A DNA stretch of 64,000 bases from Candidatus Bathyarchaeota archaeon (GTDB lineage: Archaea > Thermoproteota > Bathyarchaeia > TCS64), in contig JAOZHO010000019.1 of assembly GCA_026014875.1 (NCBI GenBank), positions 1 to 64,000 on the forward strand, given 5' to 3'. How positions within the stretch are numbered: position 1 is the stretch's first letter; every line of letters starts with the position of its first letter. A program made the translations under genes and the position numbers. The notes beneath the pieces are model-generated. The model had not been told where the DNA came from and searched no databases. It saw only the letters and a list, made by a program, of their open reading frames with translations. Shown in pieces: positions 22,977 through 29,222 of this stretch.

Positions 22977-23276
22977 GTGAAGAAACGGTTCCTGTTAATA
23001 GGACTGGTGGGGCTAGTGATAGGCCTCGTCATTTACGACATCTTCATACCCAGCCCTTGGGGAAGGAGCACCATACCCATCATATCCACGGGGTCCTTCA
23101 TGCTGATGATTTACGGCATCATCGCTAAAGACAAGTCAAAACACGTGAAGGTCGCTCCGCCGTCCCCTCCACCACCAGCCGCTAACGCCCCAGTCTGTCA
23201 AAAATGCGGCGGGCCCCTGGAGTTCATCCAGCAGTACAACCGCTGGTACTGCAGGAACTGCCAGCAATACGCCTGA
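22977..23276 (+). CDS. two-helix membrane protein with C-terminal zinc ribbon
   Basis: 99 residues from GTG 22977, which has AGGAGAGG six bases upstream; a GTG at 22959 lies too close to that sequence. Two hydrophobic helices (LLIGLVGLVIGLVIYDIF, and IISTGSFMLMIYGIIA) precede a proline linker and a Cx2C-x17-Cx2C zinc ribbon (CQKCGGPLEF ... YCRNCQQYA) facing the cytoplasm. First of four neighbouring zinc-ribbon proteins. Function unknown. Confidence 0.72.
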   Translation: MKKRFLLIGLVGLVIGLVIYDIFIPSPWGRSTIPIISTGSFMLMIYGIIAKDKSKHVKVAPPSPPPPAANAPVCQKCGGPLEFIQQYNRWYCRNCQQYA

Positions 23277-23353
23277 GACCCACCGAGGGCATCCAACATA
23301 GTTTCTAAGAGAGGGACAACTACTCCCCACTGATAAAAGAAGGGGGCGGCTGG

Positions 23354-24382
23354 TCAGTATTTCTCGACGGGGGCCATCCCCGCGTCGTAGCCTAGGAGGA
23401 CATCGTCCCGGAGAGCCTCCTTGATCATCCTCCGAGAGTACCAGATCTGATGGACGCCCTGAGCCAGCATCGCAATGAAACCCATCTCCCCCAGGAACCC
23501 CGTCCACCCGTTCCATAGGAAGTGGAGGAACATCGCGACGAGGAGCCCCGGTACGACATCCCAGATCACCACCCTACCCCGCCTAACCTTCGCGACGGCG
23601 AGCCAGAGACCCGTGGTGGCCACCCAGACCCCGTGGCCCCAGCACAATACGGATCTCATCAGGAGGACGGACTCATCGAAGTTGAGGAAGTAATGGAAGT
23701 TCTCCATAGCGAAGAAGCCGAGACCCGCCGCGAAGCCGTAGACGACCCCGTCGAGGGGGCTGTTGAACTCCTTCCCCCAGACCTTGTGCCGGACAAGCCA
23801 GTAAAGCCCCAGAGCCTTGAGGGGCTCCTCCACGAAGGGGGCGACCAGAGCCTCGTTCCCGAACATCTGCCCGAACAGAGGCCCCAAGACCGTATTCAAC
23901 GGGGCAGCCAGGACACCACTGAAGACCCCCCACGCGAAGAGGGCGATGACGAACCTGAAGGGCTCCCGTTCATACTTGTCGCTCCTGTAAACCCAGATGA
24001 GGAAGAGGAACGCGACGGCGTAAGTCGAGACGAAGTACAGCAGGTTACTGTCGATGATCGAGTAAGCCTGATCCCCGAACTCCAGCAGATAGAACCCGGC
24101 GAACAGCACGACCGCGATGACGATCAACTTCCAGGACTTGGCGACCTTTGGGGGCGGGAGCTTCTCATAAGCGACACCAGTGACGTTTACGAGACGCCGC
24201 CGAGAAGTGAAGAGGTTCGCGAAGGCGCCCAAGACGTTTCCCATGACGCTGACCTTATGGGAGGGTGGGGGCGGCGGCGGTGGAATACTCTGAGGCGTCA
24301 GCCTCGCCCCGCAGGCTCCGCAGAACCTGCTATTGGCATCCACGAGTGTTCCACAGTTGGGACAGGTCAGCACAAAATTCAC
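23354..24382 (-). CDS. PrsW-family intramembrane protease with N-terminal zinc ribbon
   Basis: 342 residues. An N-terminal zinc ribbon (CPNCGTLVDANSRFCGACG, 8-26) and proline linker are followed by eight or so membrane helices. PrsW signatures are clear: APFVEEPLKALG with the paired glutamates, DGVVYGFAAGLGFFAMENF, and a later GHGVWVATTG supplying His. PrsW proteases cleave within membranes, in bacteria an anti-sigma factor. Start is GTG 24382 after an AGGTG. Divergent from the zinc-ribbon gene at 24501, sharing a short promoter region. Substrate unknown. Confidence 0.82.
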   Translation of the reverse strand: MNFVLTCPNCGTLVDANSRFCGACGARLTPQSIPPPPPPPSHKVSVMGNVLGAFANLFTSRRRLVNVTGVAYEKLPPPKVAKSWKLIVIAVVLFAGFYLLEFGDQAYSIIDSNLLYFVSTYAVAFLFLIWVYRSDKYEREPFRFVIALFAWGVFSGVLAAPLNTVLGPLFGQMFGNEALVAPFVEEPLKALGLYWLVRHKVWGKEFNSPLDGVVYGFAAGLGFFAMENFHYFLNFDESVLLMRSVLCWGHGVWVATTGLWLAVAKVRRGRVVIWDVVPGLLVAMFLHFLWNGWTGFLGEMGFIAMLAQGVHQIWYSRRMIKEALRDDVLLGYDAGMAPVEKY

Positions 24383-24424
24383 CTAGTAGAAGATTTCCCT
24401 TAATGTCAACTCGTTTCCTTGCAG

Positions 24425-24469
24425 GCTATATAAAACAGACTCCCCCTCTCCGAGGGTCGTCCCTTATAA
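24425..24469 (+). promoter_or_regulatory. TATA-like elements between divergent zinc-ribbon genes
   Basis: GCTATATAAAAC at 24425-24436 and CTTATAA at 24463-24469. The second lies about 35 bases before ATG 24501, consistent with a nearly leaderless transcript on the plus strand. The first could serve a longer transcript. Confidence 0.45.
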
Positions 24470-24500
24470 CGACCTAGATACAGGTAAGCTTTCGATCGAT

Positions 24501-24935
24501 ATGACCGAGAACACCATTATCTGCACCAATTGCGGTGCCCAAGTGGTATCTCAGTATAAGTTCTGCACTGCATGCGGGACCCCAATTCGCGCGCCCAAGC
24601 CATCAATTCCTCTCCCTCCCGTGCCTGAGGCAGACAAGGGGCTGATCCAAGGATTGAAGACCAAGATCAGGGTCGTGGGAGACAAGGCCGGGAACGCCAG
24701 CAAGATGGCGAAAGGGGCGGTCGCCCCCGAGAAAGCATCGGCGGCGGTCAGGAACATGCTCAACGTGATGACTCAGGTCGCCTTGGACGTCGAGAGGGAC
24801 CTCCCCCCAGAAATGGTGAAGGCCGTGGATCTCACCGCGGAGATCAACCTCATCGCGTTCACCATCGGGGTCTCCATCGACCTCGAACAGTTGAGAACCA
24901 AGAGCACCCCTGAGCTACCCACGCAGGGAGAATAA
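24501..24935 (+). CDS. zinc-ribbon protein with helical tail
   Basis: 144 residues. An N-terminal Cx2C-x13-Cx2C zinc ribbon (CTNCGAQVV ... FCTACGTP) and a Pro linker lead into a helical domain rich in Lys, Ala and Glu (KTKIRVVGDKAGNASKMAK). No membrane helix. It ends about 20 bases before the convergent gene at 24955. Unknown function; probably works with the adjacent ribbon-bearing membrane proteins. Confidence 0.7.
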   Translation: MTENTIICTNCGAQVVSQYKFCTACGTPIRAPKPSIPLPPVPEADKGLIQGLKTKIRVVGDKAGNASKMAKGAVAPEKASAAVRNMLNVMTQVALDVERDLPPEMVKAVDLTAEINLIAFTIGVSIDLEQLRTKSTPELPTQGE

Positions 24936-24954
24936 GGGGAGAAGGTCTCGGAGT

Positions 24955-25731
24955 CTAGGATATCCTAGACCCGCAGTTGCCGCAGAACTTCATGTCGGGG
25001 GTTACATAGGCCCCACATGAGGGACAAACCCGAGGCTTCTCCTCGACCTTGACGCCGCAGTTGGTGCAGAACTTTAACCCCTCCTCGAGGGCGTTGCCGC
25101 AGTTACTGCAATAAGCCTTCCTCCCGACGGGGGCCGAAGGCGGCTCACGTGGTGGCTGAGGTTCTTGGATCGGGGGCACTGCCAACGCCGAGGGCGGTGG
25201 GGGAGGAGAAACATCCTGCACTCGGGGGACTTGCGAAGTCGTGTATCCTGGAGGAGGCGGTGGAGGAGGGGCAACCGACCTTGGAGATCCCAGCAATCCC
25301 TGTAGCCGGGCTAGTACCTCATCGATATCCTTCGCCGGTCCGAAGTAGAAGGGGCTGGCGGCCCCTTGTTGGCTGTGGTAGACCTCTATAAGATCCTTAC
25401 CGAATCTCTCGTGCTTAGACGCCCGGGAGACGGTCGATAGAGGTATGACGAGCTCAACATCGTCTCCCTTCACCATGCTACCGGCGGCGGCCCCGAGGGG
25501 GCCCAGAAGAAAAGCGCTCACTGCGCCGACCGCAACAGCCTTCGCGCCGCTGGCCGGTAACTTACCCTCGAAGATGAGCCTCATCGTGGTGAGAAAGAGC
25601 TGCCCCGTCATGGGTCGGGAGAGAGCCCCGGGTTCCTCGAAGAACAGGATGGCCGGGTTGATGGTGCCTCCACTGCTGTGGATCACCTGCTCATTGGGGA
25701 GGAGTTGAGTTTTCTCGGGATAATCGGACAT
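24955..25731 (-). CDS. PH/GRAM-like domain protein with two C-terminal zinc ribbons
   Basis: 258 residues. The N-terminal 125 or so read like a bacterial PH or GRAM domain (GQLFLTTMRLIFEGKL, IPLSTVSRASKHERFG, LIEVYHSQQ). A proline-rich linker follows, then two zinc ribbons (CSNCGNALEEGLKFCTNCG and CPSCGAYVTPDMKFCGNCG). GRAM domains often bind lipid or protein partners at membranes. TATA-like TTTATATT sits about 29 bases upstream of the ATG, so the transcript is probably leaderless. Confidence 0.72.
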   Translation of the reverse strand: MSDYPEKTQLLPNEQVIHSSGGTINPAILFFEEPGALSRPMTGQLFLTTMRLIFEGKLPASGAKAVAVGAVSAFLLGPLGAAAGSMVKGDDVELVIPLSTVSRASKHERFGKDLIEVYHSQQGAASPFYFGPAKDIDEVLARLQGLLGSPRSVAPPPPPPPGYTTSQVPRVQDVSPPPPPSALAVPPIQEPQPPREPPSAPVGRKAYCSNCGNALEEGLKFCTNCGVKVEEKPRVCPSCGAYVTPDMKFCGNCGSRIS

Positions 25732-25924: not shown

Positions 25925-26635
25925 CTATATACATCCACAGCAGCGGGCGATCATGACCTCAAGGGGGACGTCTTCACACAACCCCCATTCCCAGAGAGCC
26001 CTCACAACGCTTCCCCTTACGCCAGAATGGTCTCCGGACAGGGAAGAGGCACTTGAATCCCCGAGGACTGGATCAACCAAGTCCCGGAAGTCTTCAATGT
26101 GTTCCTTCCCGTAATCCGAAACTTCTCTGCCCTTCATCGGATTATAATCACCGGTCTCCCGGTCAATAGCCCGATCCCTCCTCATGTCCTCGACCACGAT
26201 GGCCCCCGCGAGCCGTGAACCGAGGAGACTGAGACCGGTGACCTGCCTAGGGGTCGACCCCAATGTGCTGAAGATTGAGGCCCCGAACCGTGAGATTTCA
26301 GCCAGGTATTCACCGGCGGAGGCCTCATCTTTCTCAAGCTCTTCGACCTTGGCGTTGATCGCTCTGACCTTATCCACGATGGGCAGGGGGAGCCCCAGAG
26401 AAACGAAGCGGGATAAGAATCCTGCGACCATTCTCCTGGGCAGACTCCCATCCCTCCTGGAATCGGCTAATTCGATCAGTTGATAGGCCCTGAGGATATC
26501 CTTGGATCCCTTGGTTGATTGTGTCTCGTCGAGGCCCAGAGAGGATAGGAGGGCCTCCAAGGGCTGGCAGTGGAGGCAGAGGTGATTTTCTGGTACGTAG
26601 CCGTTGGATTTGAATACGCAGTGCAAGATGATCAT
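25925..26635 (-). CDS. DUF5685-like all-helical protein
   Basis: 236 residues, helical throughout. Cysteines near the N-terminus (CVF at 6, CLHC at 20-23) and a C-terminal RCCGCI suggest metal binding. The middle has LGSRLAGAIVVEDMRRD followed by GDYNPM, which resembles DUF5685 proteins, distant relatives of trans-isoprenyl synthases with an Asp-rich helix and a YNP turn. I give this family only tentatively. ATG 26635 lies downstream of an AT-rich region with several TATA-like stretches. No transmembrane segments are obvious. Confidence 0.6.
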   Translation of the reverse strand: MIILHCVFKSNGYVPENHLCLHCQPLEALLSSLGLDETQSTKGSKDILRAYQLIELADSRRDGSLPRRMVAGFLSRFVSLGLPLPIVDKVRAINAKVEELEKDEASAGEYLAEISRFGASIFSTLGSTPRQVTGLSLLGSRLAGAIVVEDMRRDRAIDRETGDYNPMKGREVSDYGKEHIEDFRDLVDPVLGDSSASSLSGDHSGVRGSVVRALWEWGLCEDVPLEVMIARCCGCI

Positions 26636-28391: not shown

Positions 28392-29222
28392 ATGGAAAAG
28401 CTCATAATCACCGCCGCGATTACCGGCAGTCGAATATCCCGTTCACAGACCCCGTACATACCCATCACCCCCGAGGAGATCGCCCAATCCGCCTACGAGT
28501 GCTGGGAGGCGGGGGCCAGCGTCGTCCACATCCACGTCCGAGACCCCGAGACGGAGATCGGCACCCAGGACGCCGAGCTCATCCGCAGGGTCGTGGAGCC
28601 CCTCAGGGAGAAGACCGACCTCGTCCTCTGCCTCACCACGAGCGGCGTCCCGGGGCTAAACTTCACCCTCGAGAAGCGCATGATCCCCCTCCAGTTCAAA
28701 CCGGAGCTTGCAAGCTTCGACGCAGGAACGATCCTCCTCGGCGGAAGGCCCTTCATAAACACCCCCGAGTTCCTCGAGGGCGCCGCGAAGGCGATGAGGG
28801 AGGCGGGGGTGAAGCCTGAGCTCGAGATCTTCGACTACGGGATGATCACCACATGCATCCGGATGCGGGACAAGGGCCAACTCGAGGACCCCCTCCACTT
28901 CCAGTTCGTCCTGGGGACCCCGTGGGGAGCGCCCGCTACGCCCCGGACCCTCGTCCACATGGTGGACACCATCCCCGGCGACGCCACCTGGTCCATCATC
29001 GGAATCGGGCGGAGCCACCTCCCCATGTCCATGTTCGCCCTCGCGATGGGAGGCCACATCCGGGTGGGAATGGAGGACAACATCTACTACAATCGGGGGG
29101 AGCTCGTGAAGAGGAACAGCCAGTTCGTGGAGCGGATAGTCCGCATCGCAGAGGAGTACGGCAGGGAGATAGCGACCCCCTCAGAGACCCGGGAGATCCT
29201 CAGCTTGCCCGAGAGGGCCTAG
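28392..29222 (+). CDS. beta-keto acid cleavage enzyme (BKACE, DUF849)
   Basis: 276-residue TIM-barrel enzyme of the 3-keto-5-aminohexanoate cleavage family, which transfers an acetyl unit from acetyl-CoA to a beta-keto acid. The zinc ligands H46 and H48 (VVHIHVRDP) and late Glu in VGMEDN (near 232) are present, as are TTSGVPG and LEIFDYGM. The substrate varies across the family and is not evident here. TTCTTAAA about 35 bases before the ATG is a probable TATA box. It stands alone between the MBL gene and the cyclophilin. Confidence 0.87.
   Translation: MEKLIITAAITGSRISRSQTPYIPITPEEIAQSAYECWEAGASVVHIHVRDPETEIGTQDAELIRRVVEPLREKTDLVLCLTTSGVPGLNFTLEKRMIPLQFKPELASFDAGTILLGGRPFINTPEFLEGAAKAMREAGVKPELEIFDYGMITTCIRMRDKGQLEDPLHFQFVLGTPWGAPATPRTLVHMVDTIPGDATWSIIGIGRSHLPMSMFALAMGGHIRVGMEDNIYYNRGELVKRNSQFVERIVRIAEEYGREIATPSETREILSLPERA

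Follow-up and report, generated by a model that had tools for sequence, protein, structure and literature searches.

Four adjacent genes in a 64,000-nucleotide stretch of DNA from a Candidatus Bathyarchaeota archaeon (assembly GCA_026014875.1, contig JAOZHO010000019.1, positions 1 to 64,000; this whole stretch is referred to as the window) each encode a protein with a zinc ribbon, and one of the four is an intramembrane protease of the PrsW family. The genes, named P1 to P4 in order, lie at 22977-25731 of the window and encode a small membrane protein (P1), the protease (P2), a second ribbon protein (P3) and a GRAM-domain protein (P4); the source genome is assembled into 51 contigs totaling 2.5 Mb. 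Ribbon genes recur beside PrsW genes that carry a ribbon of their own, and none was counted beside PrsW genes in which no ribbon was seen. We tentatively favor a reading in which P2, an intramembrane protease of the PrsW type, carries a docking ribbon that probably faces the cytosol and is served by ribbon-tagged partners that change fast in evolution.

The protease itself (P2, 23354..24382, minus strand, 342 amino acids (aa)) begins with a zinc ribbon, CPNCGTLVDANSRFCGACG (24308..24364, minus strand), that scores 30.4 bits against PF13240 (cut-off 25) and continues into a PrsW domain (23483..23965, minus strand) matched by PF13367 with an E-value of 1.4e-29 (103.5 bits, cut-off 23.5). The motifs given for PrsW in PMC4602095 are EExxK and conserved histidines, and P2 possesses the EExxK, the second Glu and the two His: residues E185, E186, K189, E227, H250 and H287 each occupy a column that 50-52 of the 53 aligned PrsW proteins conserve, and the column of N291 is conserved in 43 of the 53. 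Because the active-site residues fall in conserved columns, P2 is probably an active protease. The NCBIfam equivalog model for PrsW, NF033739, gives P2 64.2 bits, far below its cut-off of 225, and a search for relatives of solved structure returned none for P2 at E <= 1 and just weak ribbon matches for P4 (best E 0.012). Charge distribution, as judged by a simple hydropathy analysis in which just four of the expected P2 helices were found, puts both the N-terminal P2 ribbon and the C-terminal P1 ribbon on the inner side, from which we infer that these ribbons face the cytosol, probably so in the case of P2.

The neighborhoods of PrsW were compared across 53 loci (in what follows, L, G, f and g with a number label loci, genomes, families and genera), comprising 32 of the 59 PrsW places listed for the class, one fragment in the congener G101 and, from outside the class, 20 of 27; places beyond these 53 mostly hold short, weakly matching PrsW. 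In 30 of the 53, PrsW itself bears a ribbon, at its N-terminus in the window's family and several others and at its C-terminus in f16. With a ribbon neighbor defined as a ribbon gene of at least 18 bits within 1.5 kb of PrsW, such a neighbor occurs in eight of these 30 loci (the window, L114, L115, L116, L117, L124, L189 and L193) versus none of the 23 others, one of which (L197) is a fragment with its ends out of view (Fisher p 0.0066). L108, L112 and L114 were counted in the ribbon group on the ribbons of their own PrsW, and three further cases fall outside the neighbor count, namely L118 (14.5 bits), L179 (2.6 kb away) and L195 (a ribbon of the P1 type). By genus, 6 of 17 with ribbon-PrsW have a ribbon neighbor; with 8.2 ribbons per Mb as the genomic background (33 genomes), this has a p of about 1e-5. 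Among 129 neighbors of 21 ribbon-PrsW loci the commonest Pfam families are PF13240 and DZR, with 11 members each, and for 107 neighbors of 16 other PrsW loci no ribbon family is among the first 25. Twelve bacterial PrsW relatives (L002-L013) lack a ribbon both in the protease and elsewhere in their loci. This recurrence in six genera, against none of the PrsW loci without a seen ribbon, tells against the main rival explanation, which comes close behind the favored reading and which we regard as a serious possibility: that P2 acts alone and uses its ribbon for folding or self-association, P1, P3 and P4 being unrelated genes with promiscuous ribbons that landed in a variable stretch.

From one family to another the partners are not orthologs. 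In f2, one partner is a multi-helix protein whose ribbon is C-terminal and whose gene lies just upstream of PrsW, and the other is a converging soluble ribbon protein; G074 has a 214-aa ribbon protein, and G049 a protein with DUF4389 and a ribbon directly upstream of PrsW. In G442 (L189), three ribbon genes in a row, two for PRC-barrel plus ribbon and one for multi-helix plus ribbon, diverge from a PrsW with two ribbons. Such runs of neighbors (three in L189 and two each in L115 and L117) are not what loosely clustering, promiscuous ribbons would lead one to expect. The partner in G480 (L193) has, by eye, two hydrophobic stretches, one of them N-terminal, and a C-terminal ribbon. A GRAM-like fold considered for the ribbon partner in L117 was unsupported by hhalign. 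The same locus of G480 also has a PrsW-like gene (L193:5485-6363, minus strand) whose product is 30% identical to the adjacent PrsW and in which the EExxK and the second Glu appear by eye to be lost; it is possibly a pseudoprotease that has an intact PrsW and a ribbon protein as neighbors. In genus g4 (L108-L111) several loci have an MgtE-like membrane protein near PrsW (two by Pfam MgtE, the others by eye).

Linkage kept over sequence divergence is better evidence than neighbor counts, and it is seen in two lineages, g9 and f48, where it argues against chance landing of unrelated ribbon genes. In g9, a trio is shared by L115 and L117 with 69% identity for PrsW, 65% for the membrane ribbon protein and 64% for the soluble ribbon protein; L116, on a contig that ends at PrsW, is 94-95% identical to L117. 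In the case of f48, the PRC-ribbon genes of L189 and L179 share 67.6% identity beyond the ribbon, against 35% for the two PrsW proteins, the gene in L179 being separated from PrsW by one other gene. Fusions add a further connection. PrsW carries a C-terminally fused ribbon of the P1 type (CxxCGGPL...WYCxxC) in L118, L119, L120 and L128, and in the first three of these a PF13240-type ribbon follows the P1-type ribbon in the same polypeptide; in L195, a protein encoded about 1 kb from PrsW has a ribbon similar to that of P1. Since both ribbon types can occur within a single PrsW polypeptide, these sequences support a functional link between them.

Several observations weigh against the docking reading, and some of them count in favor of promiscuous ribbons. 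No ribbon neighbor is found within 1.5 kb in 22 of the 30 ribbon-PrsW loci, both congeners included, several of these loci having truncated flanks. Ribbon genes also clump to some degree in general: control ribbon genes are likewise above the genome background (p 0.035), and 5 of 40 control ribbon genes from related genomes have another ribbon gene within 1.5 kb, these 40 being no random draw because they were taken from the strongest ribbons among the matches listed. The excess of ribbon-PrsW loci over control ribbon genes is accordingly modest, at 8 of 30 versus 5 of 54 (p 0.038). Compared with the same controls, a permutation at the level of genera gives p 0.038, a Mann-Whitney test gives p 0.09, and a count of any neighbor by genus, 6 of 17 versus 4 of 20, gives p 0.25. 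The four genes of the window alternate in strand, and therefore form no single operon. A GRAM-like fold in the ribbon partner of L114 was unsupported (hhalign probability 2.4%).

Within the source genome, which has 23 PF13240 matches at E <= 0.01, the grouping is unusual. Three ribbon genes within 2.5 kb arise in 0.35% of simulations in which 20 genes are placed uniformly in 2.5 Mb, and of the 18 other ribbon places in this genome, four fell below the threshold and were dropped and none of the 14 scored has a ribbon gene within 1.5 kb. The four ribbon cores of the cluster share 0.32 of their non-Cys positions, versus 0.245 for random sets drawn from the genome's 21 cores (p 0.044), a weak sign of similarity within the cluster, two of the four cores being in one protein. 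Ribbon content varies sharply within the genus, with 21 PF13240 matches at E <= 0.001 in the source genome and 3 in G028.

The sequence-only reading, made from the letters of the window and a list of its open reading frames, had proposed that the shared ribbons let the four proteins meet one partner or each other, with PrsW as effector protease of a membrane signaling unit, a proposal to be refuted if the genes did not co-occur in other genomes. No such co-occurrence was found. Comparisons were made within the family (27 genomes, including the window's own) and the class (255 other genomes). Homologs of P2 occur in the congeners G028 (75-79% identity) and G101 (66-70%, cut by a contig end) and in seven further genomes of the family (34-40%). 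Across the rest of the family (26 genomes), P1 is matched from residue 46 at the earliest and P4 from residue 141 at the earliest, in both cases at the ribbon end only, and matches to P3 are limited to its first 77 residues; the non-ribbon part of P3 has no match in any of the 255 other genomes of the class. Of the 256 genomes in the class, 12 have a GRAM domain match, eight of them above the cut-off. The PrsW locus of G028 has no other gene of the window within 10 kb on either side and no ribbon neighbor. G101 retains the same downstream block as the window, including a metallo-beta-lactamase-like gene, the gene at 28392-29222 (97%) and more, about 230 bp from the start of PrsW versus 2.4 kb in the window; P3, P4 and the gene at 25925-26635 are absent at this site, and the P1 side lies outside the available sequence. 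The latter gene (minus strand) encodes a 236-aa protein that matches no family above cut-off (DUF5685 weakly, 15.7 versus 26.7 bits). G028 and G101 together show gene turnover within the genus. A fixed four-gene unit is thus rejected, the set being absent in both congeners and full-length relatives of P1, P3 and P4 being absent from the family, all of which also counts for the promiscuous-ribbon explanation.

The genes themselves and their domain layout were as that reading had described them, with reading frames all within 22977-25731, PrsW, PF13240 and GRAM recovered by Pfam, and both orientations represented (+ - + -). P1 (22977..23276, plus strand, 99 aa) starts at a GTG preceded, by eye, by a GGAG-like ribosome site, and has two hydrophobic segments (residues 6-24 and 32-50 by hydropathy) followed by a C-terminal ribbon, CQKCGGPL...WYCRNC; the gene lies 77 bp from P2. 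This long-spaced ribbon (CxxCG...YCxxC) is matched by no Pfam model above cut-off, PF13240 and PF13248 included. P3 (24501..24935, plus strand, 144 aa), divergent from P2, has an N-terminal ribbon, CTNCGAQVVSQYKFCTACG (24522..24578, plus strand; PF13240, 29.1 bits, cut-off 25), and an otherwise unmatched tail, predicted to be helical by a low-confidence single-sequence AlphaFold model (mean pLDDT 56.6) that is too poor for use. P4 (24955..25731, minus strand, 258 aa) consists of a GRAM domain (25315..25713, minus strand; PF02893, 28.6 bits, cut-off 23.6), a proline-rich linker and two C-terminal ribbons, CSNCGNALEEGLKFCTNCG (25054..25110, minus strand) and CPSCGAYVTPDMKFCGNCG (24970..25026, minus strand), which are matched as two stretches by PF13248 (50.8 bits) and PF13240 (47.3 bits, cut-off 25). 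A hydrophobic insert inside the GRAM domain (residues 65-83 by hydropathy) could touch the membrane; the single-sequence structure model of P4 (mean pLDDT 46.8) is likewise too poor for use, including for judging a PH-like fold. A second GRAM-plus-ribbon protein is encoded in the same genome away from PrsW (L148:3533-4063), with close counterparts in the congener G101 and in G092 (L248:1498-2010 and L246:1468-1977; 170-177 aa in all); a two-helix neighbor of the L148 gene was not found beside these counterparts.

P2 and P3 are the sole divergent pair of the four, and the 118-bp gap between them could hold a control region common to both; TATATAAAA (24427..24435, no strand assigned), picked out there by eye and not tested against chance, is a possible shared TATA box. 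A promoter and terminator scan with bacterial sigma-70 type patterns gave no excess over shuffles, and tRNA and Rfam scans of the window gave no matches. GC content at third codon positions is 0.71 for P1, 0.81 for P2, 0.76 for P3 and 0.68 for P4, in line with the 0.66-0.88 of five neighbor genes.

In Bacillus subtilis, cleavage of the anti-sigma factor RsiW begins with a cut by PrsW, as summarized in PMC9263693. P2 belongs to the same Pfam family (PF13367) and shares the catalytic motifs; it differs in its N-terminal ribbon, its ribbon-tagged neighbors and its distance from the NCBIfam equivalog. This precedent underlies a second rival explanation, which extends the sequence-only reading: P2 would cut a membrane anti-factor and free a regulator into the cytosol, P1 being a candidate for the substrate or the sensor. 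P1, a small membrane protein so close to P2, would suit such a role, and the shape of the L193 neighbor, as judged by eye, is one usable by regulated proteolysis. Nevertheless, P1 is not kept in relatives that have PrsW, the equivalog score of P2 is low, and no anti-factor-like gene was seen in the neighborhood, where no dedicated search was made; we consider this explanation quite improbable. The idea of a shared-ribbon membrane unit built around PrsW therefore retains a measure of support, from an intact active site and recurrent ribbon neighbors of membrane and soluble kinds, and the fixed set of genes and the anti-factor substrate do not.

A third explanation is protein quality control, in which ribbon-PrsW and other membrane proteases would jointly degrade faulty membrane proteins and the ribbons would be incidental. 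It draws on proteases encoded near PrsW elsewhere: a trypsin-like protein with PDZ in L112 (3061-4404, by Pfam) and, by eye, L114; a ClpP-like SDH protease 2.6 kb away in L115 (4005-4913) and, by eye, in L116; and Lon_C 1.3 kb away in L130 (1267-2082). The protease family differs by lineage, however, and none is found beside P2, which makes quality control of this kind improbable.

Literature searches on PrsW with zinc ribbons or with archaeal zinc fingers, which covered few subscription papers, found no description of a ribbon-fused PrsW. Among archaea, Haloferax volcanii HVO_0408 is likewise a PrsW-like membrane protease, of unknown function according to the review PMC9263693. Partial parallels exist in bacteria. 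The pspA-ydjG-ydjH-ydjI operon of B. subtilis encodes ribbon-tagged, membrane-linked proteins that act in envelope stress (PMC11237479), and belongs to the sigma-W regulon (PMC3498285), which is released by PrsW activity. Unlike the cluster described here, the operon includes PspA and band-7 proteins and no PrsW, so the likeness is one of resemblance, and a sequence relation is claimed for the ribbons alone. In PrsW-dependent polymorphic toxin systems, as described in PMC3482391, PrsW likewise stays constant and what accompanies it varies. In those systems it is a toxin, fused at the C-terminus, that varies, whereas in the P2 cluster the ribbon precedes PrsW and the small ribbon neighbors have no toxin domain that could be seen.

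The evidence hints that the shared tags mark helpers of the enzyme. Under the docking reading, the ribbon of P2 would be a docking site on the cytosolic side, to which the ribbon carriers P1 (in the membrane), P4 (with its GRAM domain) and P3 would be brought, or which would bring P2 to them. The docked partners would set both the choice of membrane protein to be cut and the timing of the cut, in the service of membrane surveillance. It is from the inner-side charges and the hydrophobic insert of P4 that we read the ribbons as cytosolic docking points, which may couple the protease to fast-changing adaptors; contact between ribbons, or between a ribbon and a partner, as well as the substrate and the surveillance role, are what we infer. 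Quick exchange of partners would explain an exact set that is private to the source genome within a theme that recurs with PRC-barrel, DUF4389 and multi-helix partners. A bolder version, a ribbon-addressed protease whose exchangeable ribbon adaptors (GRAM, PRC-barrel, DUF4389, multi-helix) select its substrates in a surveillance module without sigma or anti-sigma factors, seems to us rather unlikely. The substrates of PrsW-like proteases are hardly known outside a few bacteria. If the ribbons are docking tags, they would offer a direct route to the partners and substrates of PrsW, and would give a testable function to one very common, unexplained small zinc ribbon.

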